64,000 nucleotides of DNA from positions 1,116,001 through 1,180,000 of the forward strand of contig NZ_JMQM01000001.1 of NCBI RefSeq assembly GCF_000733725.1. The letters run 5' to 3'. Shown here in pieces: positions 15,470-32,272 of this stretch. Under the pieces are notes generated by a model that worked only from the letters and a program-made list of their open reading frames with translations, did not search any database and had not been told where the DNA came from. The DNA comes from Nitratireductor basaltis (GTDB lineage Bacteria > Pseudomonadota > Alphaproteobacteria > Rhizobiales > Rhizobiaceae). Numbering within the stretch: the first letter of the stretch is position 1; every line of letters begins with the position of its first letter. A program made the position numbers and the translations under genes.

Positions 15470-16192
15470 TTACGATCTTGTGCAAAGATAGACTTCGCGT
15501 TCGGGATGCTCCCTGATCGTGAAGCCTGAGCTTCTGAGCATGGCTTCCACTGCTGCTCGATTGGGGAAGAACCAGTTTGTCGGATCGCCGGCATAGCTGT
15601 GCTCGACGAAATGAAGCTTGGGGTAGTCCGGTTTGTCGAATATCTCCCATTCGGAAAACGGATAATCCGCCTCGACCTCGGCCACCGTATTCCAGCCACG
15701 CTGCAGGCATTGGAAGAGCATCTTGTCGCCGCACACATGTTCGTGGATCAGATCAAGCGCCAAGAGCGGGTGGCGCAAATGATACAGCACACCCATGAAG
15801 ATCACGAGATCGAACTTCTCACCGAGTTTTGCCACGTCGTAGACGGACATCTGATGAAGTTCGAGTTCGAAACCCTCTGTCTCTGCAGCAAGTTTCGCCT
15901 GTTCGAGGTATCTCGGATCCGAATCGATGCCAACAACACGGCCAGCATTGCGCCGCTTCATCTCCATTGAATAGAAGCCCGCATTGCAACCGATGTCCAG
16001 CACGCTGCGACCTTCCAGGTCCTCCGGCAGAATATGTGCGAAATTGGCAAACTTGAACGCCGGGTAGTCGCCCAGAAAATGATCGGGAGCGGTTTCAATT
16101 CCTCCGATCTCCATGTTGTGAAACCATGGCCGCAAGGCGTGGATCCGATCCTCCAGTTCACTTGTGGAGATTCTATTGCTTCGCGCAGTCAT
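15470..16192 (-). CDS. SAM-dependent methyltransferase, TIGR04290-type
   Basis: A 240-residue class I methyltransferase with motif I VLDIGCNAGFYSME (about 60-73), the acidic residue after strand 2 (VVGIDSDPRYL) and FDLVIFMGVLYHLRHPLLAL after it. The N-terminal WFHNMEIGGIETAPDH segment is that of the family I know as TIGR04290, of unknown substrate. The start at 16192 lies one base after the stop of the SDR gene; the frame extends to 16225 but this would overlap that gene. It is the last gene of the operon. O-methylation of a sugar is the natural guess, from context only. Confidence 0.8.
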   Translation of the reverse strand: MTARSNRISTSELEDRIHALRPWFHNMEIGGIETAPDHFLGDYPAFKFANFAHILPEDLEGRSVLDIGCNAGFYSMEMKRRNAGRVVGIDSDPRYLEQAKLAAETEGFELELHQMSVYDVAKLGEKFDLVIFMGVLYHLRHPLLALDLIHEHVCGDKMLFQCLQRGWNTVAEVEADYPFSEWEIFDKPDYPKLHFVEHSYAGDPTNWFFPNRAAVEAMLRSSGFTIREHPEREVYLCTRS

Positions 16193-16193
16193 T

Positions 16194-17204
16194 TCAGGCT
16201 GTTCTCCTGACTTCGCCCGGAGCATTCATGGCGGGCATCCAGTGAATGCCGAGCTCGAGTGCAAAATAGGCAATGGTCGGCTCAAGCCCTTCGACCAGCG
16301 GCACCCGCGGCTCCCATCCCAGCAAGGTTTTGGCCTTCGAAATGTCCGGCTGCCTCTTTTGCGGGTCATCCTGTGGGAGCGGATTGTAAACGACTGGACC
16401 TGCGGCCGGAACGCGTGCCATTACCAGATCAGCCAGTTCGTTGATGGTGAATTCTCCGGGGTTGCCCAGATTAACCGGTGTCTTCGGATTCGCGTCGATC
16501 TGCATCAGAGCGATGATGCCGCGCACCAGGTCGTCGACATAGCAAAAGGAGCGCGTCTGCTGGCCGGTTCCATATATCGTCAGCTGCTCGCCCCTGAGCG
16601 CTTGAGTGATCAGATTGGAAACGATGCGCCCGTCGTCTGCCTGCATCCTCGGGCCATAGGTATTAAAGATGCGCACGACCCGTGCATCGATCGAGCCACG
16701 TCGCAGATAATCGAATGAAAGGGTTTCGCCGGCCCGCTTGGCTTCATCATAACAGGCGCGCGGACCGGTACAGTTCACATTTCCCAGATAGTCTTCCGGC
16801 TGCGGGTGAACCAGCGGGTCACCATAGATTTCACTGGTCGATGCCTGCAAGAAGCGCGCCGCGTTGGCTGCGGCAAGCTCGAGCAGGTTGTTCGTACCCA
16901 CCACACCGGTCATCATCGTATGCACAGGGTCCTTCTGATATTTCGGCGGGGACGCAGCACTGGCCAGATTGTAGATCTCATCGAAATTGCCCATGCTCGG
17001 CAGTGGATCGGTTATGTCAGCTTGCACGAGACTGAACCCAGGGTGGTTCTCCAGCGGGTCGATATTCTGCCGCGCGCCGGTGAGGAAGTTGTCCAGGCAA
17101 ACTACCTCATGCCCCTGCCCCAAAAGCGCATCACAAAGATGCGAGCCGATAAATCCCGCACCGCCAGCCACAAGGATTCGTTTCTGCTTGAGCGTGTTCC
17201 CCAT
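16194..17204 (-). CDS. UDP-glucuronate decarboxylase-like SDR (UDP-xylose synthase)
   Basis: A 336-residue extended SDR. NAD-binding GGAGFIG is at 14-20, the Ser/Thr of the active site lies in LQASTSEIYGDP, and Tyr152/Lys156 lie in CYDEAKR. NLASAASPPKYQKDP, GPRACYDEAKR, RIFNTYGPRM, DGRIVSNLITQAL and GTGQQTRSF match UDP-glucuronate decarboxylases (UXS) closely, so the likely reaction is UDP-GlcA to UDP-xylose. The start at 17204 has GAGG 6 bases upstream. UDP-glucose dehydrogenase, which makes its substrate, is at 25347-26723 in the same region. Confidence 0.85.
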   Translation of the reverse strand: MGNTLKQKRILVAGGAGFIGSHLCDALLGQGHEVVCLDNFLTGARQNIDPLENHPGFSLVQADITDPLPSMGNFDEIYNLASAASPPKYQKDPVHTMMTGVVGTNNLLELAAANAARFLQASTSEIYGDPLVHPQPEDYLGNVNCTGPRACYDEAKRAGETLSFDYLRRGSIDARVVRIFNTYGPRMQADDGRIVSNLITQALRGEQLTIYGTGQQTRSFCYVDDLVRGIIALMQIDANPKTPVNLGNPGEFTINELADLVMARVPAAGPVVYNPLPQDDPQKRQPDISKAKTLLGWEPRVPLVEGLEPTIAYFALELGIHWMPAMNAPGEVRRTA

Positions 17205-17211
17205 GTCGGCC

Positions 17212-18309
17212 TCAGACAGCCTTCGCGTAATGAGAAGTTCCGGCTCCTGCATCGCGCAGCGTCGCTACGAGTTCACGCGCGCGGGCCTCCCCGGTATGGT
17301 TTTTCAGAACGCGATCTCGGGCCGAATTGCCGATCGCCGCTCTTTCCTCGCGCGTTGAGTTGCAGAGCCAGTCGATCACCTGCCGGGTATCGTCAGCCAG
17401 CAGGATCGCCTCTCCTTCCGGTAGAACCTCTTCAATGCCGCGCCAACGATCGCTGATGATCGGTGTCGCACATGCAGCTGCTTCGAAAAGACGGACGCTG
17501 GGTGACCAGCCTGCAGCAACCATGTCAGCACGTGTGACATTCACAGTGAATTTCTGACGGCTGTAAAAGGATGGATGTTCTTCCGGCGGAAGGTGATCGA
17601 TCCTGTCGACGTTATCGGGCCAGTCGATGTCCTTGGGATATTGCGACCCGGCAACGACGAACTTGCGGTCAGGCAGTGCCCGGGCCGGCTCCAGCAGCAA
17701 CCTGTCCAGAACCGGCTGGCGGTCGGGACTGTATGTGCCCAGATAACCCAGCTCCCACTCGATCGCCTCGCCGGTCGGACGGTAGCGCTCGGCATCCACG
17801 CTGCAGTAGAGCGCTTCAGCCCGCTGCGCGCCGTAATCGCGCTCAAGCCTGGTGAGCACTTCTCCACCCGAGAAAGAATAATAGATATCGAAGAACGGCA
17901 CCTGCCGACGGGCAAGGAATGTTTCTTCCCCGCGATCGAGCGCGGCCATGGTGACCGGCGTATCAATGTCATAGAAGCAGAACAGTCTGGGCTGCATCCG
18001 CGCCACCCTGTCGATCACCAACTGTCCATCCGGCACATACGAGCCCAGGATCACCGCATCGGCCGAGACGATTTCCTTCTCGAACCGCGTGATCTCGTCA
18101 GCATTCTCATAATAGGAAAGCTTGCAGAATTCCGGGTCGGGTAGGTCACGATGCTCTGCATACCAGGGCACGTCGCGCTCTATGAAGTGGAGTTCATGGC
18201 CCTGCGAAGCCAGGCCGCGCATAAGAGAGCGATAGGTCGTGGCATGACCGTTGCCCCATGAGGAAGAGACGGAAAGACCGATGAAGACAATCGAGAGGGG
18301 GCGGTTCAT
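17212..18309 (-). CDS. CgeB-type glycosyltransferase, copy 1
   Basis: A 365-residue GT-B glycosyltransferase of the CgeB/Glyco_trans_1_2 type. The N-terminal domain (1-170) starts with SIVFIGLSVSSSWGNGHATTYR and the acceptor-side loop. The C-terminal donor domain (180-350) has YLGTYSPDRQ, YSRQKFTVNVTRADMVAAGWSPSVRLFEAAACATPIIS and the conserved Glu in FEAAAC. No signal or membrane segment, so it acts on the cytoplasmic side. It overlaps copy 2 by 4 bases. Donor and acceptor cannot be read from the sequence. Confidence 0.85.
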   Translation of the reverse strand: MNRPLSIVFIGLSVSSSWGNGHATTYRSLMRGLASQGHELHFIERDVPWYAEHRDLPDPEFCKLSYYENADEITRFEKEIVSADAVILGSYVPDGQLVIDRVARMQPRLFCFYDIDTPVTMAALDRGEETFLARRQVPFFDIYYSFSGGEVLTRLERDYGAQRAEALYCSVDAERYRPTGEAIEWELGYLGTYSPDRQPVLDRLLLEPARALPDRKFVVAGSQYPKDIDWPDNVDRIDHLPPEEHPSFYSRQKFTVNVTRADMVAAGWSPSVRLFEAAACATPIISDRWRGIEEVLPEGEAILLADDTRQVIDWLCNSTREERAAIGNSARDRVLKNHTGEARARELVATLRDAGAGTSHYAKAV

Positions 18310-19400
18310 TCGGCAGCCTCTATGTGATTGTTGTGCAAATGGTTCTTCAGGATGCGATCGAGCTCCGCCGCCCTGTGGGCATAAGTATGCTCGCGCAGAA
18401 TGCGCCGTCGGCCGTTTTCCCCGATACGCTTTGCCTCTTTGTCGGTCAGAGACTGAAGGATTTCCGCGACTTCCTGCCCGTCTCGCGCTGCCAGGACCTC
18501 TTCACCTTCTTTCAGGAACATATCGAGGCCTTCCCAACTGTCAGTGATGAGACATGCACCGGCACCAGCCGCCTCGAAGACACGTGTTGCCGGCGAGTAA
18601 CCATTCTGCGCCATGCTTTCACGGCTGATGTTCAACACTGCTTTTGGCGTCACATTGAAGGCGTTGTGGTCCTTGGTCGGAACATGGCCGATATAGCGGA
18701 TATTGCTCGGCATCGCCTTGTCGCCCCAACCTGATCCGCCAAGGATGAAGCGTTGGGAGGATGCCTGTTCGGCGGCATCGAAGAAGAACTGCTCAACGCG
18801 GGCCTCGCGATCGGGAAGACGATTCCCGAGGAAGGACAGATCGGCGGTGAAGCGGTTTTCGGCGCGGACGGGATGATGCGTATCGGGATCGAGCGCGTTG
18901 TAAATGGGGATACATTCACGAGCGCCCATGGCGTGGTAGCCGTCAATGACGGGCTTTCCGCCACCATAGGTCAGAACCAGATCCACCTCGGGAATCTGCC
19001 GATGCAACGGGTGGGTGCTATGCGACCGCATCTCGGACAAGGTTGCAGGTGCATCCACGTCCCAGAAAATCTTGAGCGATTGGGGATGCGCGGCGGCAAA
19101 GACTTCATCGAACAGGGCTTCGTCCTCGAAACCGACGCCGCTGGTCTTCACCACAACGTCTGCTTTCGCGGCTTTTCGGGCATGTTCTTTCAGCGCTTCG
19201 GTCGTGCCATCATAAACGACCGAGCGACACCATTCGGGCGGGCAGATATCCCTGTGTTTCTGGCGGTCATAGACATTCGGCTCGTAGAAAGTCACCTGGT
19301 GACCAAGCTTGTGAAGCTGACGAATGATGCCCCGGTAGTATGTTGCAGCACCGTTCCAGTAAGACGAAACGAGGCTCGACCCATAGAATGCGATCTTCAT
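18306..19400 (-). CDS. CgeB-type glycosyltransferase, copy 2
   Basis: A 364-residue GT-B enzyme of the same family as its two neighbours: IAFYGSSLVSSYWNGAATYYRG at the N-terminus, DLSFLGNRLPDREARVE at the start of the donor domain, and NISRESMAQNGYSPATRVFEAAGAGACLITD around the catalytic glutamate. The ATG at 19400 overlaps the stop of copy 3 by one base (TGATG); a GTG one codon upstream is also possible. Cytoplasmic. The three copies share the plan but differ along most of their length. Confidence 0.85.
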   Translation of the reverse strand: MKIAFYGSSLVSSYWNGAATYYRGIIRQLHKLGHQVTFYEPNVYDRQKHRDICPPEWCRSVVYDGTTEALKEHARKAAKADVVVKTSGVGFEDEALFDEVFAAAHPQSLKIFWDVDAPATLSEMRSHSTHPLHRQIPEVDLVLTYGGGKPVIDGYHAMGARECIPIYNALDPDTHHPVRAENRFTADLSFLGNRLPDREARVEQFFFDAAEQASSQRFILGGSGWGDKAMPSNIRYIGHVPTKDHNAFNVTPKAVLNISRESMAQNGYSPATRVFEAAGAGACLITDSWEGLDMFLKEGEEVLAARDGQEVAEILQSLTDKEAKRIGENGRRRILREHTYAHRAAELDRILKNHLHNNHIEAAE

Positions 19401-20527
19401 CACTCGGCGGCCTCCTTCGGAGCCAGTTGAGTGCGAACGCGCGCGGTACCGTGTTGGCTCAAGACGCTAAGCAATTCGTCCACGCGGTGGGCACAGCTGT
19501 GTCTTGTTGTGATTGTCTCGTACCCATTACGCGCAAGTTCGGCGCTGAGTTCCGGATCAGACAGTATGTTTGTCAGATGCTTCCTCATCTCCTGGCCATC
19601 GCGAGCGAAAAGGAAGTCCTGGCCGCCTCGAAACAAACCCTCGGTATCTTCCCAGGGTGCCGAAACCAGCGGGATGCCGCAGGCCAGCGCCTCGAACATG
19701 CGTATCGTGGGAATGCCGGGCAGTGTTTCGCGATATGGCCGTCTGGGCACATGAACCGTCACGCGGTAGCGGGCAAAGGCTTCCGGAACGTCAGCATTGG
19801 CAATCCAACCGCCATAGGTGATGTTGGCTGCCGCCAAGGTTTCTTTGGCTTCCGAGGGATAGCGGACACCCCGGACCAGGGTTTTCAGCCGAAGTGAGCG
19901 CGCGGGTTCAATCAGGAACTCGTGAAGTTCCGCCGTTCGTTCATCGTCACCCCAATTGCCGATCCAGATCAGGTCACCATCCTTTGCCGGCGTGTGCATG
20001 GGGCGGAACAGCCTCAAATCAGCCGCTTCATGCCAGGTTACCACCTGACTGCCCCATCCCTGCGCCAGATAGCGCTGGCGAAGCGTGTCGCCAAAGGCAA
20101 GGATCATATCGTAGTGCTTGAGGGACAGCTCTGCGATTTCGGGTTCGGCCGACACGGCGCGGTGGTGCGTGTCGTGGAAAATCAGAGTGAAATCACTGTT
20201 CTGACGGAGGTCCCCCAACCGTTTTACAAGTTGCGGGTCCGTCCATTCGTGCACGACGACCACATCGGCTCCGTCAAGAGCAGCTTCATGGTCGAAGTGT
20301 TCATCGTAGAGTGCGCTTTCAAGCCCGGGGAAGTCTTTCAAGAAGCGATCGACCGCCTGCTGGCCCTGATCGGATATCAGGTTCTGCCTGCTCCAGCCAT
20401 CTGCTGGTTCCAGAGCCACCGCATCGTGCCCAGCATTGACCAGTTCCCTCATGACGCCACGCAGGAAGTGGGCGTTGCCATGGTTCCAGTCCGAGAGAAG
20501 CGAGTGCGTATAGAAGACGAATTTCAT
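19400..20527 (-). CDS. CgeB-type glycosyltransferase, copy 3
   Basis: A 375-residue GT-B glycosyltransferase. The start at 20527 (MKFVFYTHSLLSDWNHGNAH) overlaps the GT4 stop by 4 bases and aligns with the starts of copies 1 and 2; the longer frame to 20554 does not. The donor domain shows LIWIGNWGDDERTAELHEF and VTVHVPRRPYRETLPGIPTIRMFEALACGIPLVSAPWED. The motif HVPRRPY..LPGIPTIRMFEA is the counterpart of the NVTR/NISR strings in the other copies. Confidence 0.85.
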   Translation of the reverse strand: MKFVFYTHSLLSDWNHGNAHFLRGVMRELVNAGHDAVALEPADGWSRQNLISDQGQQAVDRFLKDFPGLESALYDEHFDHEAALDGADVVVVHEWTDPQLVKRLGDLRQNSDFTLIFHDTHHRAVSAEPEIAELSLKHYDMILAFGDTLRQRYLAQGWGSQVVTWHEAADLRLFRPMHTPAKDGDLIWIGNWGDDERTAELHEFLIEPARSLRLKTLVRGVRYPSEAKETLAAANITYGGWIANADVPEAFARYRVTVHVPRRPYRETLPGIPTIRMFEALACGIPLVSAPWEDTEGLFRGGQDFLFARDGQEMRKHLTNILSDPELSAELARNGYETITTRHSCAHRVDELLSVLSQHGTARVRTQLAPKEAAE

Positions 20528-21681
20528 ACGGCCATCTCCACGGTTTCCCCGCACAGTGCCTGGTAGATTTCAATCATCTCGGCGGCCTGGATGTCGGGCG
20601 TGTAACGTCTTGAGCGTGCGAGAGCCTTTTGCCCAAGCTCCTCACGAAGTCCGGCGTCTTCAATGAGCCGAGCAAGAGCCCGTTCCAGGCTTTGTGCATC
20701 TCTGGGATCGAAGAAGATGGCGCTGTCGTTCCAAAGCTCGCGATAGGTCGCGATATCTGCAAGAACGAGCGCTGCGCCCGAACGCGCACCTTCCAGGGCT
20801 GCCAGACCAAACGGCTCGTAGAGCGAAGGGGAAACGACGATCGCCGCACGACCTAGCTGGCGCATCAGGTCGGCATGGGGCACCTCATCGAGATGGCATG
20901 CATTTTCGATGGCAACGCTCTGGCCGTTCGGCCCCTCGCCTGCGCCGGCCATGACAATCGGCCAGTCCACATTTGCAGCCGCGGCATCCAGCAATGATGC
21001 GTTCTTCGCTTCATCCCACCAACGTGCCGCTGCAAAGATTACCGGATCTTTCTCGGCACCGTTCATGAAATTGCTGAGGCCGTTGTGGACCACCTGGAGC
21101 TTGGGAACCACGCCGTAGCTTCCTGCGACGGCCTGCGCGTGGCTTCCACTCGGTGCGATCACTGCATCCGCACGCTCCATTCCGCGCCGGTTCAGTTCTT
21201 CAAGCCATTTACAGCTTTCAGGCAGCGGTTCTTTCTTTACCGCATGCCACCAGGTGATCGGACAGGAATGGGAGACGGCCACTACGGGTAGCGACGTGGT
21301 GAGACCGGCTGCCTGGGTAGGCATGTTGAGGTGAATGAGATCAACGTTCTCTTCCCGAGCAACACGCTCAATCTCATCAGGCACGCGCGAGAGTGCGACG
21401 GCATCGCATACCATCCAGTCGAGCGGCTCATCCAGCCAGATCAGCTTACCCAGACGTTCAGCTTCTCCTGCCTTCTCCCCGCTTGGCCGTGGGCCGAAGC
21501 CGAGAAAGGTCACGCGGTGAAACTGCGGACGCAGTGCGCGGGCCAGTTCCATGGCATAGCGCCATACACCGCCCACGGCATCCAGGGTCATGAGGATATG
21601 GTAGCCGCCGGGACCGCCGTGGCCAGTCATCAGATGGTGGGTTGCTGCAACGGCTCCGAGTTCAGCTCCGACATGTTTCAT
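20524..21681 (-). CDS. GT4 family glycosyltransferase
   Basis: A 385-residue retaining GT-B glycosyltransferase. The N-terminal domain has HILMTLDAVGGVWRYAMELARAL, the glycine loop of GT4 enzymes. The C-terminal domain has VIFAAARWWDEAKN and the donor-site EX7E motif in EPFGLAALEGARSG, which marks the GT4 branch. Coupled by 4-base overlaps on both sides. It is a different lineage from the three CgeB-type enzymes beside it. Acceptor unknown. Confidence 0.88.
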   Translation of the reverse strand: MKHVGAELGAVAATHHLMTGHGGPGGYHILMTLDAVGGVWRYAMELARALRPQFHRVTFLGFGPRPSGEKAGEAERLGKLIWLDEPLDWMVCDAVALSRVPDEIERVAREENVDLIHLNMPTQAAGLTTSLPVVAVSHSCPITWWHAVKKEPLPESCKWLEELNRRGMERADAVIAPSGSHAQAVAGSYGVVPKLQVVHNGLSNFMNGAEKDPVIFAAARWWDEAKNASLLDAAAANVDWPIVMAGAGEGPNGQSVAIENACHLDEVPHADLMRQLGRAAIVVSPSLYEPFGLAALEGARSGAALVLADIATYRELWNDSAIFFDPRDAQSLERALARLIEDAGLREELGQKALARSRRYTPDIQAAEMIEIYQALCGETVEMAV

Positions 21682-23687
21682 GCTGACATCCTCTTCTTGT
21701 TATTGTTGTTGATGGTCAGACCGCGCGTGGCACAAAGCCAATCCGCAAGATCCTGCAACCCTTCCCGCCACGCGGTTTGGCTCTGCCAGCCCAGTTCTTT
21801 CTGCAGAAGGCGCGTATCGCTCACATAGTAATGCTGGTCGCCCGGCCGCCACGGCTCGCGACCGATATCGGGATCACTACCGGTGATCTTGCCGATTTCA
21901 TGCAGCACCATTTGCAGGCTGACCGCATTGGCCGGACCGCCGCCCAGATTGTAGGCTTTGCCCGAGATTGCACCGATGTGTTCGGCGGCAAGCCGATAGG
22001 CCTTCACCGCGTCGTTGACATGCAGGATGTCGCGCACCTGCTTGCCATCTCCGAAGATGGTGATCGGCTGGCCGTCCAGTGCCCTGATGAGAAAGTGCGC
22101 AACCCAGCCCTGGTCCTCTGTCCCGAACTGTCTGGGGCCGTAGATGCAGCTCATGCGCATCACCGCGCTGGGTACTCCGAAGGTCTTTGCGTAATCGAGC
22201 ACATACTGGTCCGCGACACCTTTCGAGCATCCATAGGGAGTGCAGAATTCCAGCGGCCGCGTCTCTGCGATCCCGTATCTGTGCGTCGACTTGGAAGCAG
22301 GGACATAACGGTCCTCCAGCTCGATCATTTCCAGATCCAGGAGTGCCCCGTACACCTTGTTGGTGCTGGCAAAGATTACGGGCGCATCGCGACCGGCGGC
22401 GCGCACACCTTCGAGTATGTTCAAGGTTCCACGTGCATTGACCTCGAAATCGCCGAAGGGCTCTTCAAGGCTGGTGGTGACTGCAGTCTGTGCGGCCAGA
22501 TGGAAGACGACCCTGGCATCCTGAAGTGCGGGCCGTATCGCGTGCATATCGCGAATATCTGCAAGAAGCGGATGGACCCGATCCTTGTGGCGATCCTTCA
22601 ACCAATTGAGGTTCTGGTCGACGCCGGGGCGGCTGATATTGTCGAGCACGATCACATCGTGACCATCCGCGAGGTAGCTGTCCGCCAGATTGCTGCCGAT
22701 GAAACCGCTGCCGCCGGTGATGAGTATCGGTGCTGCCTTGGCTCCCCGAGCGGGCGCGGCAAGCCGCGTTACCTCCCGGACCCGTTCGATACCGCCATCC
22801 TTGAGCAGCCGCGAAAGAAGTTTTGGCTTCCCGGAATTGTCCACAGCACCCAGATGGTAGTGGCGGACATCAAACCAATGACCTTCCTGGACGGCAATGT
22901 CATGGGGGACATCACGCCAGGAGTACCAGTACATGCGATCGGCAGCTGCATCCAAGGCGCTCAGGAACCGTCGCCCCTGTTCCACCTCATCGTTGCGCCA
23001 GGTTGAATAGCCTGTTTCGGTTATCCAGATCCGGGCGGCAGGGTTGTAGCGGTCGACAATCTCACGCAGCTCGTCGATATTGCGGTTCCATCCGTTCCAG
23101 CTGCCCTCCTCGCTGTCCCAAGTCCCCGGGAACCCATGGATGCCGACGGCTGACACAACATCCAGCAGGCCCCGTTGTCCCATAAGGTCGACCCAGTATG
23201 GGTCGAATGGTGAAGGCCCGCCCAGGACGGCCTTCCAGCCACGCTTCTGCGCCCAATAGGCTGCAGCACCGACCATTTCACAGAAGAGCTGAAAGTCCTG
23301 ATCGATCCGCCAATCCCAATCCAGAAGATTGTTCGGCTCGTTCCACAATTCGATCTCGGTGAAGTGTGCGCCGTAGCGGGTCAGTACATGGTCCACGAAA
23401 TCTGCGTAGTCCTGCAGCCGCTTTGGCGCGCCTGACGACTTGCCATTGCGTGAAATGGAGGGGGGCGTGTAGTGGACGCAGGGCAGCACCTCGAATTGTT
23501 CGGCCAGACGCGGCAGCAGCCAGTCGAACCACTCAGGACCGCCTTGCGCGAGATATTCGGCCCAGGAAAGGTGAGTGCGCAGATATCGAGCGCCGGATGC
23601 CTTCAGCTCCGGCAGTATCTGCTCAGTGCGCTCATATTCCCCGGGACGAAACCACTCGACGAACCCGAAGTCTTTCCGCTGACTCAT
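21678..23687 (-). CDS. fusion of a GH39-like glycosidase domain and an NDP-sugar 2-epimerase-like SDR
   Basis: A 669-residue two-domain protein. Residues 1 to about 305 form a clan GH-A barrel like beta-xylosidases: acid/base Glu117 in IELWNEPNN and nucleophile Glu224 in WITETGYST. Residues about 318-660 form an extended SDR with GGSGFIG (325-331), FASTNKVYG, and Tyr485/Lys489 in PYGCSKGVADQY. FCTPYGCSKG, YGPRQFGTEDQGW and GDGKQVRDILH are the pattern of CDP-paratose (tyvelose) 2-epimerases. There is no signal peptide, so the glycosidase half is cytoplasmic. Both active sites look intact. It is coupled by ATGA overlaps on both sides. I infer proofreading or trimming plus sugar-nucleotide conversion, without proof. 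Confidence 0.82.
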   Translation of the reverse strand: MSQRKDFGFVEWFRPGEYERTEQILPELKASGARYLRTHLSWAEYLAQGGPEWFDWLLPRLAEQFEVLPCVHYTPPSISRNGKSSGAPKRLQDYADFVDHVLTRYGAHFTEIELWNEPNNLLDWDWRIDQDFQLFCEMVGAAAYWAQKRGWKAVLGGPSPFDPYWVDLMGQRGLLDVVSAVGIHGFPGTWDSEEGSWNGWNRNIDELREIVDRYNPAARIWITETGYSTWRNDEVEQGRRFLSALDAAADRMYWYSWRDVPHDIAVQEGHWFDVRHYHLGAVDNSGKPKLLSRLLKDGGIERVREVTRLAAPARGAKAAPILITGGSGFIGSNLADSYLADGHDVIVLDNISRPGVDQNLNWLKDRHKDRVHPLLADIRDMHAIRPALQDARVVFHLAAQTAVTTSLEEPFGDFEVNARGTLNILEGVRAAGRDAPVIFASTNKVYGALLDLEMIELEDRYVPASKSTHRYGIAETRPLEFCTPYGCSKGVADQYVLDYAKTFGVPSAVMRMSCIYGPRQFGTEDQGWVAHFLIRALDGQPITIFGDGKQVRDILHVNDAVKAYRLAAEHIGAISGKAYNLGGGPANAVSLQMVLHEIGKITGSDPDIGREPWRPGDQHYYVSDTRLLQKELGWQSQTAWREGLQDLADWLCATRGLTINNNNKKRMSA

Positions 23688-24884: not shown

Positions 24885-24909
24885 GGAACCTTAGCCTCAG
24901 ACGATGGTT
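24885..24909 (+). promoter_or_regulatory. EcfG-type promoter of the small acidic protein gene
   Basis: GGAAC at 24885-24889, 16 bases, GGTT at 24906-24909. It differs from the consensus GGAAC-N16-CGTT by one base. Transcription would start near 24918, 45 bases before the ATG at 24963. Confidence 0.6.
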
Positions 24910-24962: not shown

Positions 24963-25232
24963 ATGTCTGAAGCCAAGACCACCACAGATCACGAAACCAT
25001 ACGCCGATGGGCAGAAGCTCGCGACGGGCACCCAGCGAGAGTGCGTGACAGCGCTCCCGGCGGGGTCCTGCGCATCGATTTCGGAGAGCCGGAAGAGAAC
25101 CTCGAAAAGATCAGCTGGGAAGAGTTTTTCCAGATCTTCGACAGCAACAATCTGGCGTTTCTCTATCAGGATGAAACCAGTGACGGCGGCACAAGCCGAT
25201 TCAACAAGTTTATCAACAAAGCGGATCAATAG
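24963..25232 (+). CDS. small acidic conserved protein, probably stress-induced
   Basis: An 89-residue protein, soluble and acidic. The chosen ATG has AGGGAG 8 bases upstream; the frame itself opens at 24912. The pattern TTTDHETIRRWAEARDGHPARV, GGVLRIDFGEPEENLEKISWEEFFQIFD, AFLYQDETSDGGTSRFNKFI belongs to a widespread family of about 90-residue proteins in alpha- and betaproteobacteria. I recall these being sometimes labelled, wrongly, as 1,4-alpha-glucan branching enzyme; they are far too short for this. Function unknown. An EcfG-type promoter stands upstream. Confidence 0.8.
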   Translation: MSEAKTTTDHETIRRWAEARDGHPARVRDSAPGGVLRIDFGEPEENLEKISWEEFFQIFDSNNLAFLYQDETSDGGTSRFNKFINKADQ

Positions 25233-25289: not shown

Positions 25290-25314
25290 GGAACAAGCGC
25301 AGGTCCCGATGATT
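25290..25314 (+). promoter_or_regulatory. possible EcfG-type promoter of ugd
   Basis: GGAAC at 25290-25294, 16 bases, GATT at 25311-25314. It fits the loose GGAAC-N18-TT form but lacks the CG before TT. It stands 33 bases before the ugd ATG at 25347. Confidence 0.4.
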
Positions 25315-25346: not shown

Positions 25347-26723
25347 ATGAAGATCGCGATTGTCGGCTCTGGTTATGTTGGCATCACAACAGGTACCTGC
25401 CTGGCGAAACTGGGACATGATGTGTGCTGCCTTGATCTGAACCGCGAGCGCATCACAATGCTGCAAAAAGGGGTGTTGCCCATTTACGAGCCGGGCCTCG
25501 ATATTGCGCTCAACGAGATGATCGGGTCCGGGAGGATGCACTTCTCCGCAGACACAGCAGAGGCCGTGCAGGGGGCTCATGCGGTCTTCATCGCAGTCGG
25601 GACACCGTCGGGTGCGGATGGCAGCATCGACCTCTCGCAAGTCTTCGCTGCAGGCAGGAGCATAGCTCCCCACTTGATGGCCGGAACCGTGGTCGTCATG
25701 AAATCCACGGTTGTGGCCGGCACTGCACAAAGCATGCGGGAAATCATCGCCCGCGAACGCGGAGCATTCGATGTGCGCGTGGCTTCCAACCCGGAATTCT
25801 TGCGGGAAGGGTCTGCCATAAAGGACTTCATGGAGCCTGACCGGATTGTCTTGGGAGCAGACGACCCCTACTCCATGAAGGTTCTCCGCAAAATCTATGC
25901 GCCGTTCGTCAAAGAACAGGCGCCAATCGTCGAGACAAGAACCATCAATGCCGAACTCATCAAATATGCTGCGAACGCCTTCCTCGCTCTGAAGATCGGT
26001 TTCATCAACGAGGTGGCAGATCTTTGCGAAAACAGTGGCGGCGACGTATCGGATGTCGCGCGCGGCATTGGCCTTGATACACGCATCGGCGCGGCATTCC
26101 TGCAGCCGGGACCTGGTTATGGTGGTTCCTGTTTCCCGAAGGACACGCGAGCCTTCGCCTCTACCGGGCGGGAATACGGTGCGCGGCAACATCTTGTCGA
26201 AGCTCTTATCTCCCGCAACGATGAGCGCAAGAAGCATCTTGCGCAACGTATCATACGCGAAGGCAGCCTGAACGCAGGGCAGCGTGTCGCCGTACTTGGC
26301 CTGGCCTTCAAGGCGAATACCGATGATGTCCGCGAAGCTGCCTCACTCTCCATTATACCGCATCTTCAGGAACGCGGTCTGGAAGTAGCTGCCCATGACC
26401 CCAAGGCACTTCAAACGGCTTCTGAACATCTCGCGGGCGTCTCCTTGCATGAGGATGCCTATGACTGCTGCCGCGGCGCCGATGCTGTCGTTATCCTGAC
26501 GGAATGGGAGGAATATCGCGCGCTCGACCTGAGACGCCTGCGCGGCCTCATGGTTGGCGATCATCTCTTCGATTACCGCAATCTCCTCGAACCCTCGGCG
26601 GCCTCCGAAGCCGGCTTGCGGCTCGTTAGTCTGGGCCGTGTCTCGGCAGCACCGGCATCGCGCAAAGGCGTGGCGCCTATTGGCTCCTGGGACAGGCGGG
26701 TAGCGGCGCCAGAACATATCTGA
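25347..26723 (+). CDS. ugd: UDP-glucose 6-dehydrogenase
   Basis: Oxidises UDP-glucose twice to UDP-glucuronate with NAD+. The 458-residue protein has the N-terminal Rossmann loop VGSGYVG (6-12), SNPEFLREGSA with the acidic active-site residue, Lys and Asn in IKYAANAFLALKI, and catalytic Cys262 in GYGGSCFPKD. The C-terminal UDP-binding domain is complete. A good ribosome site (TTGGAGG) precedes the ATG. Together with the UXS-like SDR at 16194-17204 it forms a route from UDP-glucose to UDP-xylose. Confidence 0.95.
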   Translation: MKIAIVGSGYVGITTGTCLAKLGHDVCCLDLNRERITMLQKGVLPIYEPGLDIALNEMIGSGRMHFSADTAEAVQGAHAVFIAVGTPSGADGSIDLSQVFAAGRSIAPHLMAGTVVVMKSTVVAGTAQSMREIIARERGAFDVRVASNPEFLREGSAIKDFMEPDRIVLGADDPYSMKVLRKIYAPFVKEQAPIVETRTINAELIKYAANAFLALKIGFINEVADLCENSGGDVSDVARGIGLDTRIGAAFLQPGPGYGGSCFPKDTRAFASTGREYGARQHLVEALISRNDERKKHLAQRIIREGSLNAGQRVAVLGLAFKANTDDVREAASLSIIPHLQERGLEVAAHDPKALQTASEHLAGVSLHEDAYDCCRGADAVVILTEWEEYRALDLRRLRGLMVGDHLFDYRNLLEPSAASEAGLRLVSLGRVSAAPASRKGVAPIGSWDRRVAAPEHI

Positions 26724-26777: not shown

Positions 26778-27779
26778 ATGACACTCCTCGATCGCACTCA
26801 CACCGAGCAGGTTATTTCGAAAACAATGAGAGCTGCGGTACTCACTGCGCCCAATCGTTTCGAGATCAAAGAGGTCGCCATTCCCGAGCCCAAACGCGGC
26901 GAAGTTCTGGTGCGTCTTGCCGGCTGCGGAGTTTGCGCGTCCAATATCGAGCCATGGCAAGGGCCAGAATGGATGGAATATCCAACGGCACCCGGTGATA
27001 TGGGGCACGAAGGCTACGGCACGATCGCGGCACTGGGTGAAGGCGTGACTGGCCTGCAGATCGGCATGCCCGTTACAACTCTGTTCTACAATTCCTATGC
27101 CGAATATGACGTTGGACCGGCGGAAAATGTCGTTCCGCTGCCTGACGGCTTGTCCGACAAGGATTTCCCGGGCGAACCGCTTGGCTGCGCCATGAATATT
27201 TTTGCTCGCAGCGACATTCGCCCGGGCCAGACCGTCGCGATCGTCGGCAGCGGCTTTCTGGGGGCCCTGCTCTGCCGGTTGTGCGTATCGGAAGGGGCGC
27301 GCGTAATTGCTGTAAGTCGGCGTGACACTGCATTGTCCATTGCGAAGCATGCAGGCGCACGACATGTGATCAGGATGGACGACCACTATCGCATCATAGA
27401 TGAGGTAAAGGCGCTTACCGACGGTGCCCTATGTGACCGCGTCATCGAAGCCACGGGCAAGCCATGGCCCCTTGATCTTGCCGGTGAACTGACGAGCGAG
27501 CGCGGACGGCTGGTTATCGCCGGTTACCATCAGGACGGGCCACGTCAGATCAACATGCAGATGTGGAACTGGAAGGGTCTCGATGTCATCAACGCCCATG
27601 AGCGTGACCCTGAAAGATATCTTTCAGGGATCCGCGCAGCAATCGACGCAGTGGTTGCCGGCAAGATCGATCCTTCGCCCTTGATAACGCATCGCTATAG
27701 GCTGGAGGAATTGAACCAGGCGCTCCAGGATGCACGCGACCGGCCCGACGGATTTCTCAAAGCAGTGGTGAGGATGTGA
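26778..27779 (+). CDS. MDR-family (zinc-type) dehydrogenase
   Basis: A 333-residue medium-chain dehydrogenase. Catalytic-zinc ligands are kept: Cys in GCGVCASN and His-Glu in MGHEGYG. The four-cysteine lobe for structural zinc is missing. The coenzyme loop is VAIVGSGFLGALL (about 154-166). The start at 26778 has AGGA 6 bases upstream; MRAAVLTAPNRFEIKE at 26826 is a shorter alternative. It lies 54 bases after ugd and one base before the Gfo/Idh gene. Substrate unknown; a sugar or cyclitol is suggested by context. Confidence 0.82.
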   Translation: MTLLDRTHTEQVISKTMRAAVLTAPNRFEIKEVAIPEPKRGEVLVRLAGCGVCASNIEPWQGPEWMEYPTAPGDMGHEGYGTIAALGEGVTGLQIGMPVTTLFYNSYAEYDVGPAENVVPLPDGLSDKDFPGEPLGCAMNIFARSDIRPGQTVAIVGSGFLGALLCRLCVSEGARVIAVSRRDTALSIAKHAGARHVIRMDDHYRIIDEVKALTDGALCDRVIEATGKPWPLDLAGELTSERGRLVIAGYHQDGPRQINMQMWNWKGLDVINAHERDPERYLSGIRAAIDAVVAGKIDPSPLITHRYRLEELNQALQDARDRPDGFLKAVVRM

Positions 27780-27780
27780 A

Positions 27781-28809
27781 ATGAGCGGCAAGCCACGTAT
27801 CGGGTTTCTGGGCCTTGGTTGGATCGGTCGCATGCGCATGGAGGCGCTTGGAGCGAGCGGCATCGTTGAAATTTCTGCGCTCTGCGATCCTTCGGGTGAG
27901 TGTCTGCGCGAAGCGGCGATGATTGCTCCCGATGCCCGCATGGTTGCTGATCTGGATGAACTTCTGAGCCTCGACCTGGACGGTATCGTCATTGCCACGC
28001 CCAGTGCGATGCATGCGGCACAGTCCATCCGCTGCCTCGAGGCAGGTGTTGCGGTGTTTTGCCAGAAGCCGCTTGGCCGGAATGCTCCAGAAGTCGCAGA
28101 TGTTGTTGCAGCAGCGCGGCGTGCCGACAGGCTTCTTGGTCTGGACTTGTCCTATCGGCATACGGCGGCAATGCAGAAGATCCGCGAAGAACTGGCCAAT
28201 AGCCGGATCGGGCGATTGTTTTCAGCAGACCTCGTGTTTCACAACGCTTACGGGCCGGACAAGCCCTGGTTTTACGATGTCAGCCAGTCCGGCGGCGGAT
28301 GCGTTGTCGATCTGGGCGTCCATCTGGTGGATCTGATGATGTGGGTGACTGGCTTCCAGAAGGTCACGCAGGTCACGAGCAGCCTTTATGCGAAGGGCAA
28401 GCGTCTCGGCGGCAACCCGGACACTGTTGAGGATTATGCTGTTTCCGCCTTCGAACTTGCGGACGGCACGAGCTGCCGGTTGGCATGCTCCTGGGGTCTC
28501 AGTGCCGGAAAGGATGCGGAGATCACAGCTACCTTCTATGGCACCAATGGCGCCCTGGAGATGCGAAACATTGACGGGTCGTTCTTCGACTTCGAAGCTG
28601 CCGTGATGCATGGAACCACGCGTGAAGTGCTGGTCGTTCCGCCTGACGAATGGGGCGGCAAGGCACTGATTGCCTGGGCCGAACAACTCACCCGCTCGAG
28701 AAAATTCGACGAATCGGCCGAAGAGCATGTGCTGACCGCAGGTGTTCTCGACCGCATTTACGGGCGGGAAGAAGTCGCGCAACCACGGCTTCTCGCCCGC
28801 GCCGGCTGA
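27781..28809 (+). CDS. Gfo/Idh/MocA family oxidoreductase
   Basis: A 342-residue NAD(P)-dependent sugar or cyclitol oxidoreductase. The N-terminal Rossmann domain begins RIGFLGLGWIGRMRMEAL, and the EKP-type motif appears as CQKPLGRNAPE (Lys kept, with Gln in place of Glu). The C-terminal domain has GGGCVVDLGVHLVDLMMWVTG with the catalytic-type Asp and His. Starts one base after the MDR dehydrogenase stop, so they are coupled. The pair suggests a two-step oxidation-reduction of one sugar, which is an inference. Confidence 0.85.
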   Translation: MSGKPRIGFLGLGWIGRMRMEALGASGIVEISALCDPSGECLREAAMIAPDARMVADLDELLSLDLDGIVIATPSAMHAAQSIRCLEAGVAVFCQKPLGRNAPEVADVVAAARRADRLLGLDLSYRHTAAMQKIREELANSRIGRLFSADLVFHNAYGPDKPWFYDVSQSGGGCVVDLGVHLVDLMMWVTGFQKVTQVTSSLYAKGKRLGGNPDTVEDYAVSAFELADGTSCRLACSWGLSAGKDAEITATFYGTNGALEMRNIDGSFFDFEAAVMHGTTREVLVVPPDEWGGKALIAWAEQLTRSRKFDESAEEHVLTAGVLDRIYGREEVAQPRLLARAG

Positions 28810-28810
28810 C

Positions 28811-29521
28811 TTACGATTTGAACTCCAGGTCCGCATAAAGCGGGCGGTGGTCCGACGCCAACCGCGTCAGCGCGCTGTCATAGACCTCACTCCCGCGCGA
28901 GGAGACCGGGCCACGCATGAAGATGTGGTCGATGCGCAGCATGGGGAAGCGTGACGGGAAGGTCGCGCCGCGCCGACCGCGATAGTGCGTGGCGTCCTTC
29001 ATCTCGCGGCTGAGGCGGCGGTACACCGAAGAAAATGGTATCGCATTCAAGTCCCCCATCAGGACCAGAGGCATATCCTCCGGAACGCCTGCGATCCAGT
29101 TCGCACTCAAAAGTCGATCAAGCTGGTGGTTGCGCTGCCCACGCATGACGCCCAGATGGGTAGTCATGACGTGTACTGGTCCGGCGTCGCCTGATATCTC
29201 GACGTGAAGCGCACCACGGGGTTCCCCCGGGGCAGGCAAGATTCCCGACTTGACCACACGCATATCCCGCGAGGTGAGCACGGCATTGCCGTAGTGCTCC
29301 TCTTCCACTCTCATGGCCGCGTGAAAGTGAAACTTCATGTCGAGATGCCGCGCTATTTCATGCGCTTGATCCACACCGCCCGAGCGTGCGCGGCCCACAT
29401 CCAGTTCCTGAAGCGCAATGACATCAGGGTCACACTGAGCGATGACTTCGGCGATACGCGAGGCATCGCACCGTCCATCCGTTCCGCGACATCCATGTAT
29501 GTTGTAGGTCAAGAACCGCAA
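28811..29521 (-). CDS. endonuclease/exonuclease/phosphatase (EEP) family protein
   Basis: A metal-dependent hydrolase of the EEP superfamily (DNase I, sphingomyelinases, phosphatases). The 236 residues carry LTYNIHGCRG (Asn), DVIALQELDVG (catalytic Glu), MTTHLGVMRGQR, LMGDLNAIPFS (DxN) and SDHRPLYADLEF (Asp-His). I chose the TTG at 29521, which has GGAG 9 bases upstream and lies about 54 bases below the EcfG-type promoter. ATG codons at 29590 and 29620 would lie at or before that promoter and add residues outside the domain. The stop is 2 bases from the convergent Gfo/Idh stop. No signal peptide in this form. Confidence 0.85.
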   Translation of the reverse strand: MRFLTYNIHGCRGTDGRCDASRIAEVIAQCDPDVIALQELDVGRARSGGVDQAHEIARHLDMKFHFHAAMRVEEEHYGNAVLTSRDMRVVKSGILPAPGEPRGALHVEISGDAGPVHVMTTHLGVMRGQRNHQLDRLLSANWIAGVPEDMPLVLMGDLNAIPFSSVYRRLSREMKDATHYRGRRGATFPSRFPMLRIDHIFMRGPVSSRGSEVYDSALTRLASDHRPLYADLEFKS

Positions 29522-29579: not shown

Positions 29580-29607
29580 GGAACCAACATATGCCGGCTC
29601 CCGTTCC
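29580..29607. promoter_or_regulatory. overlapping bidirectional EcfG-type promoter
   Basis: Plus strand: GGAAC at 29580-29584, 17 bases, CGTT at 29602-29605. Minus strand: GGAAC at 29607-29603, 17 bases, GGTT at 29585-29582. The same 28 base pairs thus carry a full promoter in each direction. Plus would drive the UPF0104 gene (ATG 29664), minus the EEP gene (TTG 29521), with start points some 50 bases from each. Confidence 0.7.
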
Positions 29608-29663: not shown

Positions 29664-30620
29664 ATGGCTATAAAAAAACACCTTCTTCGACTTTTTGTTT
29701 TCGCGGCAATTTGCCTTGCCGGCTATCTGCTCTACAGGACACTCAGCAAATACAGTTTCAGCGAGTTGAAGGGGTCGCTCTTCTCGATCTCTGCCTGGCA
29801 TCTTGCGGGGGCCATAGGGTTTGCGGCTTGCAGCTATTTTTGTCTCACCTTTTTCGATTACCTGGGCCTGCGCTATGCAGGGCGGCCAATGCCATATCCG
29901 AAGGTGGCATATGCCTCATTTACCAGCCTCTCCATCGGCCACAATATCGGTGTTGCCGCATTGTCCGGCGGTGCCGTGCGCTATCGCTTCTATTCCAAAT
30001 GGGGGGCATCGGGAGGTGAGGTTGCAAATGTGATCCTGTTCTCAGGAGTCACAGTGCTTCTCGGCCTCATCACACTGGCGGGAACGGCATTGCTTCTGCG
30101 CCCGCAAGCTGCAAGCGAAATGACGATGCTCGGCGTCACCACCATCCGCATTCTGGCTATCGGGGGATTGTGCGTCCCCCTCGCCTATATTGGGATCGCC
30201 GCCTTCTACTCGGACTTTACCTGGCGGTTCAAACATTGGGAGTTTCGTATTCCCCAGATGAAGTTGGCGATCGCCCAGATCGCTGTTGGTTTAGTCAACT
30301 TTGCGTTCGTCGCCGCCTGCCTTCATCAGACGGTTCTTGCATTCGCAGATGTTGGCTATATCGACGTGGCTGCCGTCTATGCCATTGCCAACGGGACGGC
30401 GTTGATCAGCCATGTGCCCGGCGGCCTCGGTGTTCTTGAAGCCACGGTTCTCTATCTGCTGCGAGGCGCACCATTGGTCGGTGCAGTGCTTGCATTCCGT
30501 TTTTGCTACTTTCTACTGCCGCTGATGATCGGCCTGCCGATGCTGCTTCTGGCCGAAGGCGGGATTCTTAGGAAAACGGATCGCGACAAGAAGGAGCAGG
30601 CATCCGCTTCGCGCGCCTGA
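29664..30620 (+). CDS. UPF0104 / lysylphosphatidylglycerol-synthase-like integral membrane protein
   Basis: A 318-residue inner-membrane protein with about eight hydrophobic helices. It corresponds to the transmembrane half of MprF (PF03706) and lacks the aminoacyl-transferase half. Family marks are LYRTLSKYSFSELKGSL, YLGLRYAG, SFTSLSIGHNIGVAALSGGAVRYRFYS and ANGTALISHVPGGLGVLEATVL. Members act as lipid flippases or in lipid modification, mostly unproven. A ribosome site (AGG) and an EcfG-type promoter stand upstream. Between an EEP and a phospholipase D gene it suggests a phospholipid-linked role. Confidence 0.85.
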   Translation: MAIKKHLLRLFVFAAICLAGYLLYRTLSKYSFSELKGSLFSISAWHLAGAIGFAACSYFCLTFFDYLGLRYAGRPMPYPKVAYASFTSLSIGHNIGVAALSGGAVRYRFYSKWGASGGEVANVILFSGVTVLLGLITLAGTALLLRPQAASEMTMLGVTTIRILAIGGLCVPLAYIGIAAFYSDFTWRFKHWEFRIPQMKLAIAQIAVGLVNFAFVAACLHQTVLAFADVGYIDVAAVYAIANGTALISHVPGGLGVLEATVLYLLRGAPLVGAVLAFRFCYFLLPLMIGLPMLLLAEGGILRKTDRDKKEQASASRA

Positions 30621-30649
30621 AACGGCGCGCCTGCCAAGGTCAGCACTGT

Positions 30650-32200
30650 TCAGGAAAACAGACGGGACGCCCAGCTGCGGATCCGGTGGGGCAGCACACG
30701 TACCTTCTGGAGCGGCCAATAGGGCTTGAGAGGATCGAGAACCGCCGTCCCAAACAGCAGTGACTTCTCACCACCGGGATCCAGGTTGAAAGGTCGAAGA
30801 TGCTTGTTGCCGACGTTCAGGCGGTCGATTGCTGACACGAGGGATCCGCTTTCGTAGACCGCGGACTCGACCTCTTTCAGCGGCACTCCGACATGCTCGG
30901 CCAGAAGGTCGTTGCGCAGAAACTCAACCGCCTGGCTCTCCTGCGGTGAGCGGGCCTCGATCGCAACATCGCACTCGGTGTCCAGCCCCTCGGAGCGGTG
31001 GTTGAGGTTGGATGACCCGATGCGCAGGAAGCGGTCGTCGACGATGAGAACCTTCGCGTGGATGAGAATTTCCTGCTCCTTGCCGGAGGTTTCATCCACG
31101 GCAACGGGATAATAGACACGCAGCCTGTTGTTCCGGTCAGCAGCCATGAGACGTCGGATGATACGGTCGCGGTTTCCACCCATGACAAATTGCTCGAACA
31201 AGCCGCGAGAGCTTTCGGTCACGAGGATCACCACCTCGGGCCCATCAGGTTCGGCAAGCCGTTTCTCAAGCAAGCGGCCAAGGGGACGCGAAGCCAGGTA
31301 TTGAGTTTCGATATAGATGCTTTTGCGCGCGGCACGCAGGACGTCGTAATTCAATCGTCCTGCCTCTCGCCGGCCCTGAAATCCCATCATCGAGGGCAAG
31401 GTGCGCGCAATGCCGATCTCACAGTCTTTCAGGTCCGGATCGAACCCGTCGGGCCAGATTTCCTCACCGTGATGTTCCGGCTGGTGGCGTTCGCCGGTAG
31501 CGCGACGCCAACGTTCACGTGCCAGATCACCGATCGCCTTGGCGGCTACGCCTTCGAGCGCGATCTGCGTGTCGTGCACCGGCTCATAGGCTTCACCGTC
31601 TTCCGTTACCCGGTCGGGGTCATAGGGGCGATGAGGTCTGCGGTCCCAGCGATGCACCGTCAGGTCCATGCCTCCGGTAAAGGCAAGACTGTCATCCAGG
31701 CAAACGAGTTTTTGATGATGGGAGGCGCGCAGCGGATGTTTGCCATCATAGCGAACCAGGATACGGGGATGCTCGCGCCATGGCTCCTTCTGAAGAATCT
31801 TCTTCTGCGAATACAGTGATCCCAACCGCCATACCAATATACGCACCGTCAGATCTTCATTCTCTTCCACCGCTTCGCGGATCAGATTTCCGAGCCTGAC
31901 CGACTTCTCGCCCTGATCGGGATGCAGGCGGATATTGCCGTTAAAGTCCCAGCCAATGATCCAGATGCTGCGCTTGGCATTGCGCAACGCCTGCTCGAGC
32001 ATCGTGAAATATGCCTCGCCATCCACGAGGAATTTCAGCCTTGTCGCTTTCTCGATGCGCCAGACATTGCGCCCGGGGCGCAGAATGCTTCCTGCCGAGG
32101 CGGCTGCTTCGGAGCGCGCGCTCTGCGTCTGCCTTTGGCCTGCATCCTTGGCGTTCAGATAATTGTTCGTGGAAATCATGTTATCGGCGGAAGCGTCCAT
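30650..32200 (-). CDS. phospholipase D-like protein
   Basis: A 516-residue phospholipase D-superfamily protein, either transphosphatidylase or hydrolase. Two HKD motifs: SHHQKLVCLDD..FTGG (about 157-175) and IHAKVLIVDDRFLRIGSSNLNHRS (about 385-408). The N-terminus is low-complexity and shows no clear signal peptide. Its two-domain size is that of the bacterial PLD/cardiolipin-synthase-like group, but it lacks the membrane helices of cardiolipin synthase. Convergent with the UPF0104 gene, 30 bases apart. A consensus EcfG-type promoter stands 50 bases upstream of the ATG. Confidence 0.88.
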   Translation of the reverse strand: MDASADNMISTNNYLNAKDAGQRQTQSARSEAAASAGSILRPGRNVWRIEKATRLKFLVDGEAYFTMLEQALRNAKRSIWIIGWDFNGNIRLHPDQGEKSVRLGNLIREAVEENEDLTVRILVWRLGSLYSQKKILQKEPWREHPRILVRYDGKHPLRASHHQKLVCLDDSLAFTGGMDLTVHRWDRRPHRPYDPDRVTEDGEAYEPVHDTQIALEGVAAKAIGDLARERWRRATGERHQPEHHGEEIWPDGFDPDLKDCEIGIARTLPSMMGFQGRREAGRLNYDVLRAARKSIYIETQYLASRPLGRLLEKRLAEPDGPEVVILVTESSRGLFEQFVMGGNRDRIIRRLMAADRNNRLRVYYPVAVDETSGKEQEILIHAKVLIVDDRFLRIGSSNLNHRSEGLDTECDVAIEARSPQESQAVEFLRNDLLAEHVGVPLKEVESAVYESGSLVSAIDRLNVGNKHLRPFNLDPGGEKSLLFGTAVLDPLKPYWPLQKVRVLPHRIRSWASRLFS

Positions 32201-32247
32201 CTATTACCCCTGCCCGGCGCGATCACGAATTGCCGGCTCAGTGCTGA

Positions 32248-32272
32248 AACGCCGCCCCTGGGCTATCGTTCC
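32248..32272 (-). promoter_or_regulatory. EcfG-type promoter of the phospholipase D gene
   Basis: On the minus strand GGAAC (32272-32268), 16 bases, CGTT (32251-32248), an exact match to the GGAAC-N16-CGTT consensus. Its upstream half overlaps the last codons of the NAD(P)HX repair gene. The start point would be near 32240, 40 bases before the ATG. Confidence 0.72.

Follow-up and report, generated by a model that had tools for sequence, protein, structure and literature searches.

Results

Layout of the locus

We analyzed a 64 kb window of the Nitratireductor basaltis genome and, within it, a 16.8 kb module (positions 15470..32272, called 17 kb) in which glycan genes lie behind sites resembling promoters of EcfG, the sigma factor of the alphaproteobacterial general stress response. 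Domains were assigned by Pfam and NCBIfam profile searches of the module proteins. The glycan operon consists of eight genes running leftward from 24787 to 15470, all on the minus strand. The first, SDR1 (23684..24787), encodes a UDP-sugar 4-epimerase-like short-chain dehydrogenase/reductase (SDR) that matches PF01370 and GalE-like structures. FUS (21678..23687) joins an N-terminal PslG/GH39-like glycosidase domain (approximately residues 1–310) to a C-terminal sugar-nucleotide SDR. Four glycosyltransferases follow: GT_d (20524..21681), a GT4-family enzyme (PF13439 and PF00534), and then GT_c (19400..20527), GT_b (18306..19403) and GT_a (17212..18309), each of the Glyco_trans_1_2 type (PF13524). 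GT_b matched nothing among PDB sequences up to an E-value of 0.1, and GT_a has no hydrophobic segment above threshold. The operon ends with SDR2 (16194..17252), of the UDP-glucuronate decarboxylase (UDP-xylose synthase) type by its phmmer match to 2b69, and MT (15470..16225), a methyltransferase of the TIGR04290 family (389 bits; NCBIfam cut-off 300).

On the plus strand lies SAP (24963..25232), which encodes an acidic protein of 89 amino acids with no Pfam or NCBIfam match, followed by UGD-ADH-GFO (25347–28809). UGD (25347..26723) belongs to the UDP-glucose 6-dehydrogenase family (TIGR03026, 441 bits; cut-off 189.8), ADH (26778..27779) is a zinc-binding dehydrogenase (PF00107 and PF08240) and GFO (27781..28809) is a Gfo/Idh/MocA oxidoreductase (PF01408 and PF22725) whose PDB relatives include 6jw6 and DgpA. 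Three lipid-type genes complete the module: EEP (leftward), LPG (rightward) and PLD (leftward). Directly past the 3′ end of the glycan operon is a tRNA-Lys gene (anticodon ttt; 15367–15442).

Predicted promoter sites in the window

The EcfG consensus is GGAAC, a spacer of 16–17 bp and C/GGTT or NGTT, according to the accessible text of two reports (PMC3892343, PMC4814048). A search for GGAAC-N16/17-NGTT found six sites in the window, five of them within 15470–32272 and one elsewhere. The predicted promoter of the glycan operon (24830..24854, minus strand) reads GGAAC-N16-AGTT and that of SAP (24885..24909, plus strand) reads GGAAC-N16-GGTT. Two sites overlap back to back between EEP and LPG (29580–29605, plus strand, CGTT; 29607–29582, minus strand, GGTT), and the predicted promoter of PLD (32248..32272, minus strand, GGAAC-N16-CGTT) overlaps the 3′ end of an nnrD-like gene. 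The −10 element is therefore C/GGTT in four of the five module sites and AGTT in one, and all five fit the EcfG-type (ECF15) consensus. A degenerate site before UGD (25290..25314, plus strand, GGAAC-N16-GATT) misses it by one base. Each of these positions, including the one-base deviation before UGD, agrees with a sequence-only reading that preceded this analysis. As laid out, the sites would mark several separate transcription starts and not one operon. The 29580 and 29582 sites are not independent, since they are both strands of one 28-bp near-palindrome (29580..29607).

The number of sites is weak evidence, because the motif is no more common across the genome than its reversed form: GGAAC-N17/18-GTT occurs 171 times and its reversed counterpart 180 times, and for the strict consensus the counts are 64 and 79, with no over-representation. 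Shuffled 64 kb sequences contained a mean of 2.7 sites, and 9 of 100 shuffles reached six. For 16.8 kb the expectation is 0.81 sites, giving P(≥5) = 0.0015, or P(≥4) = 0.009 when only independent sites are counted, both before correction for scanning. The sequence-only reading had asked whether the local count exceeds chance; judged by number, it hardly does. The motif is not enriched genome-wide, although the module is the densest 17 kb (five sites; the next has four) among the 100 sites listed of 171 (contig C1). With P near 0.01 for independent sites and no genome-wide over-representation, we dropped site density as evidence.

Placement is more telling. Using a simple home-made gene caller, we scored all five module sites as promoter-placed. 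In 11 sampled stretches from elsewhere in this genome, 220 kb in total, the score was 3 of 9 for the motif and 0 of 9 for its reverse. In the rest of the window the one site was not promoter-placed, and the reversed motif was in 1 of 4 cases. The four intergenic stretches that hold the module sites total 472 bp and would contain 0.023 sites by chance, although these intervals were chosen after the fact. Unlike the number of sites, their placement and conservation are strong evidence.

Conservation of the predicted glycan promoter

For counts across relatives, FUS was scanned against named genomes, which gave 514 relatives, and the best 80 were kept. An upstream site was defined as one within 250 bp of the orthologue start, with starts set by a best-match rule. 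These relatives range from Rhizobium to Paracoccus. Each of the 80 stretches contains matches to SDR1, FUS and GT_d, and with a few exceptions the genes run in the order SDR1-FUS-GT_d-GT_c-GT_b-GT_a-SDR2-MT (for example, L034 lacks GT_a and GT_b matches, SDR2 is inverted in L040, and neither L081 nor L088 has a close SDR2). An MT gene whose start region is intact was found in 63 of the 80 stretches and the SAP gene in 24. The cluster and its sites also occur in S. meliloti 1021 and in R. etli CFN42, where the cluster lies on p42b (RHE_RS22255-RHE_RS22300). Within the N. basaltis genome itself, a second SDR1-like gene (C1:283962-285074, 45% identity) has no promoter-placed EcfG-type site.

SDR1 is preceded by a site in 74 of the 80 relatives at a median of −71, and 72 of these sites begin 30–130 bp upstream; the six misses are L035, L074, L086, L101, L109 and L110. 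Before operon-internal genes, sites were found in only 0–2 of 63–80 cases each. The reversed motif occurs 0–1 times before every gene and in 0 of 80 before SDR1. ADH orthologues have a site of their own in 62 of 78 relatives, while no NGTT site precedes ADH in N. basaltis. Among the 12 relatives with a linked UGD, 11 carry a full NGTT site (median −63) at the position where the window has its weak one. Of the 24 relatives with SAP in their stretch, 12 have a site upstream of it.

The same element emerged when no motif was assumed. We enumerated all pairs of a 5-mer and a 3-mer separated by gaps of 5–25 within 150 bp upstream, and GGAAC-N17-GTT ranked first of 151,993 dyads before SDR1 (66/80) and first of 158,357 before ADH (58/78). 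This enumeration used an older start rule that picked the internal SDR of FUS in some loci, which could only lose a few SDR1 matches. The predicted glycan promoter is a phylogenetic footprint of great depth.

The surroundings of the cluster are also rich in such sites. Across the 80 loci we counted 457 sites and 81 reversed; outside the module genes, 206 and 45 in 719 kb, where the baseline is known for the N. basaltis genome alone (ratio approximately 1). Genes behind these sites, recognized by eye from sequence, include those for an ECF sigma factor, a manganese-catalase-like protein, a DUF892-like protein and a response regulator. Given this excess and the stress-type genes behind the sites, the glycan cluster tends to sit in stress-gene neighborhoods. 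The stretch from a Rhizobiaceae metagenome-assembled genome (L037 1-21977) holds fifteen EcfG-type sites in 22 kb and carries the glycan module and EEP-LPG together. A protein of approximately 84 amino acids, resembling by eye the C-terminal domain of RNA polymerase alpha, follows EcfG-type sites in 12 of the 80 loci (for example L060, minus strand). A special role for palindromic double sites was considered and rejected, as 21 overlapping pairs against 2 reversed is no clear excess given the 457 and 81 sites in these loci.

Regulator genes and their association with the site

Under stress, PhyR sequesters NepR and thereby frees EcfG. The N. basaltis genome encodes PhyR (86.8 and 75.7 bits) and NepR by Pfam searches, and an ECF sigma factor, recognized by Sigma70_r2/r4 and its position, adjoins nepR. 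Between phyR and nepR-ecfG (L207 10960-11020) lie overlapping back-to-back EcfG-type sites, arranged like those between EEP and LPG, and a third site; in all, this locus (C2) has six full-consensus sites within 6.2 kb. Used as a positive control for placement, it had 5 of 7 sites promoter-placed.

NepR was found in 79 of the 80 named relatives; in the remaining one (L110, Falsiroseomonas), the entire 22 kb stretch is devoid of sites. We extended the comparison to 96 genomes by adding 16 more members of the class in which SDR1 was matched (as it was in 17 of 385 genomes, N. basaltis included; G646 and G668 are 85% and 82% complete). In these 16, the site is present in 3 of 7 with NepR above cut-off and in 1 of 8 without NepR; G527, which has the site but a NepR match below threshold, was not tabulated. 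Pooled, 77 of 86 genomes with NepR and 1 of 9 without it carry the site (Fisher P = 1.6e-6).

Neighboring lipid genes

EEP (28811..29521, minus strand) encodes a member of the endonuclease/exonuclease/phosphatase family (PF03372). Its longest frame reaches 29620; because close homologues align from the codon at 29521 or the next, the start was taken at TTG 29521, which puts the promoter 61–86 bp upstream. LPG (29664..30620, plus strand) is an LPG_synthase_TM (UPF0104-type) integral membrane protein (PF03706, 43.5 bits; cut-off 33.4), and PLD (30650..32200, minus strand) is a phospholipase D superfamily protein (PF13091 and PF00614). PLD scores 36.4 bits against a ClsB cut-off of 281 and lies below the NCBIfam cardiolipin-synthase cut-offs, so we do not call it a cardiolipin synthase.

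A close LPG homologue (at least 38% identity) is present in 8 of the 150 genomes searched, N. basaltis included, and 4 of these 8 have a site upstream of LPG. EEP and PLD stand beside LPG in six of the eight stretches and PLD alone in a seventh. In one of these genomes, G103 (L117), EEP and LPG are likewise separated by an overlapping double site, and a further one lies close to the estimated PLD start. Across 26 PLD matches, N. basaltis included, 3 have a same-strand site no more than 80 bp from the estimated start. The sequence-only reading had joined lipid and glycan genes into a single stress regulon of 15 genes. That unit is overstated, since EEP and LPG occur together near the glycan cluster in just one of the 80 relatives' stretches (L037); a PLD-like match was found in two others (L052, L080) and a 35% EEP match in one (L110), so that the glycan cluster is mostly conserved without lipid genes. 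The proposed EcfG control of the lipid genes fared better: it has weaker backing than that of the glycan genes, yet is probable and reasonable. We regard EEP-LPG-PLD as a separate, neighboring membrane-lipid module that is probably EcfG-controlled here.

The trio resembles the E. coli ybhP-ybhO(clsB)-ybhN triad, in which a protein of the EEP family, one of the PLD superfamily and a UPF0104-type membrane protein are likewise encoded side by side. Trios of this type occur in five other genomes of the order. The genes here differ in being divergent and convergent instead of forming one operon, and in the distance of PLD from the ClsB cut-off.

Enzymes and predicted product

SDR2 matches UDP-glucuronate decarboxylase 1 (2b69) with 372 bits and an E-value of 1.8e-110, and this strong homology predicts a UDP-xylose synthase-type enzyme. 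With the homology of UGD, the module should be able to make UDP-xylose. The N-terminal domain of FUS has no Pfam match, and against PDB sequences it returned only antibody chains with weak E-values. In the AlphaFold model of FUS (pLDDT 81.4), however, this domain is predicted to be a clan GH-A TIM barrel: its top three solved folds by Foldseek are all PslG (5bx9, 4zn2 and 9g17), with an E-value of 3.8e-13 and a TM-score of 0.68–0.71 by query length. Two glutamates, E117 (WNEPN) and E224 (TE(T/A)GY), are invariant in 29 of 29 sequences, and we take them to be the acid/base and nucleophile of clan GH-A. FUS shares the predicted PslG/GH39 fold and both glutamates but is only approximately 20% identical to PslG, is fused to a sugar-nucleotide SDR, and lacks a hydrophobic segment. 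The SAP model (pLDDT 82.6) gave no PDB fold match at an E-value of 0.001 or below.

Clear membrane segments are absent from the glycan enzymes; a single hydrophobic stretch occurs in ADH, near residue 152. By Pfam, the module contains no flippase, polymerase or ABC exporter, and does not qualify as a Wzx/Wzy- or ABC-type locus. Together, the enzymes suggest a methylated glycan fed by UDP-xylose and made by soluble proteins. As the module has no such transporter or polymerase, we favor, at somewhat less than even confidence, a protective glycoside or glycan that is synthesized in the cytoplasm and may stay there.

Alternatively, though we consider this unlikely, the module could make an exopolysaccharide or capsule for export, with flippase and polymerase encoded elsewhere and stress control serving biofilm formation or desiccation protection. 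The closest solved fold of the FUS N-terminal domain is PslG, the hydrolase of the Pseudomonas Psl exopolysaccharide and a glycosidase encoded inside the biosynthetic operon, as FUS is in the glycan operon. The accessible text on S. melonis also lists glycosyltransferase and 'exopolysaccharide' genes that depend on the general stress response (PMC6599016). Export machinery encoded elsewhere may indeed serve the module, and this counts against a cytoplasmic product. Nevertheless, no exporter lies among the module genes, none was recognized by eye in the recurring site-bearing neighbor groups, and the module has no membrane-bound priming glycosyltransferase.

A rather improbable alternative is that the glycosyltransferases decorate an inositol acceptor, yielding a stress-induced glycosyl-inositol compatible solute or a glycolipid head group. 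It draws on variant clusters on S. meliloti pSymB and in Roseomonas mucosa, which encode the PslG-like domain on its own and include genes for an inositol-phosphate synthase (75% identical between the two species) and a histidine phosphatase (48%). In S. meliloti 1021 the synthase, histidine phosphatase and stand-alone PslG-like domain form an operon-like set (L185 3891-6622), whose first frame, that of the synthase, has an EcfG-type site starting 64 bases upstream. We found no inositol-phosphate synthase in the N. basaltis genome with PF01658 (PF07994, absent from the Pfam matches of the Roseomonas synthase, is uninformative for this search), nor by tblastn in the stretches of the 80 relatives. 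The lack of a synthase in the genome itself weakens the inositol-acceptor idea, as inositol would need to be imported. A protein of approximately 585 amino acids without a Pfam family is 48% identical between the Roseomonas (L188 2929-4689) and Sinorhizobium (L185 6710-8458) stretches, and has no counterpart in the stretches of the 80 relatives.

Discussion

Taken together, the phylogenetic footprint and the PhyR, NepR and ECF sigma factor genes of the host strongly support the proposal of the sequence-only reading that EcfG controls the glycan operon, SAP and UGD, and we consider EcfG control of the glycan module highly probable. In the mechanism we envisage, stress would lead PhyR to sequester NepR, as judged here from the genes present, and EcfG-RNA polymerase would then start at GGAAC-N16/17-NGTT sites. 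One transcript would run leftward through SDR1-FUS-GT_d-GT_c-GT_b-GT_a-SDR2-MT; rightward transcripts would cover SAP and, from the weaker site, UGD-ADH-GFO. UGD would convert UDP-glucose to UDP-glucuronate and SDR2, on its strong homology, UDP-glucuronate to UDP-xylose, while SDR1 and the SDR half of FUS would supply further activated sugars. The four glycosyltransferases, without membrane segments, may assemble a short glycan that MT would cap by methylation and that the PslG/GH39-like half of FUS may trim or proofread.

That the sites are chance intergenic matches, or are bound by a different regulator or sigma factor with similar specificity, is very improbable: the motif is indeed no commoner genome-wide than its reverse and similar −35 elements occur in other ECF sigma groups (S. 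meliloti ECF26, in the accessible text of PMC6180224), but a footprint with fixed spacing and position before SDR1 in 74 of 80 relatives, against none reversed, the top rank in an unbiased dyad enumeration, the same motif between phyR and nepR-ecfG, and the association with NepR all argue for EcfG.

Several points weigh against EcfG control of the glycan module. All of the regulation is predicted from sequence, and the motif as such is not enriched in the N. basaltis genome (171 against 180 reversed). The 80 relatives were selected by FUS similarity as the best of 514 and are not independent. SAP has a site in only half of the relatives that hold the gene. The association with NepR is confounded with taxonomy: G622 carries the site though no NepR was found there, the site is missing in 4 of the 7 distant genomes with NepR, and some distant SDR1 matches (47–50% identity) may not be orthologues. 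Given this confounding and the doubtful distant orthologues, we read the association as support and not as proof. Finally, none of six terms sought for this cluster appears in the accessible main text, tables aside, of the report on the R. etli EcfG regulon.

EcfG (ECF15) regulons have been described in R. etli, M. extorquens, S. melonis and S. meliloti, with GGAAC-N16/17-C/GGTT promoters under PhyR-NepR-EcfG control, in the accessible text of four reports (PMC3892343, PMC4814048, PMC6599016, PMC6180224). Promoters and control match what is predicted here, but the glycan pathway of the module is not named in that text. The S. melonis regulon does include glycosyltransferases, but in the accessible text the sites predicted for its 3506-3509 set are poor and the annotations differ. 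In line with the sequence-only reading, which knew of no description of these genes as a unit, we found none in the literature, supplementary regulon tables aside. As an EcfG target, the glycan cluster is undescribed in the accessible text of the reports found, including PMC3892343, PMC6599016, PMC6180224, PMC4167512, PMC4814048 and PMC3188799, although supplementary tables may list single genes; TIGR04290 is not mentioned in the literature searched. A related cluster outside the class lies on a plasmid of the gammaproteobacterium Xanthomonas sacchari (NZ_CP010410), which has the same enzymes (SAP 56%, FUS 47%, and a TIGR04290 methyltransferase). There, SAP lies inside the set, all genes run in one direction, and no EcfG-type site precedes the cluster.

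The glycan module is very likely a conserved output of the alphaproteobacterial general stress response, both standard and overlooked, even though EcfG regulons have already been mapped in several species. We propose, tentatively and as possible more than probable, that the core protective products of this response include a widespread cytoplasmic glycan or glycoside that contains xylose, carries a methyl cap and is possibly inositol-based. If so, the glycan would take the place in these bacteria that trehalose or glycogen has in others, a role that we propose because its genes recur in neighborhoods rich in EcfG sites. With its stress promoter kept in 74 of 80 relatives, this near-complete pathway points to a definite compound to look for, and the lasting result would be a conserved, uncharacterized glycan pathway with a predicted stress promoter.

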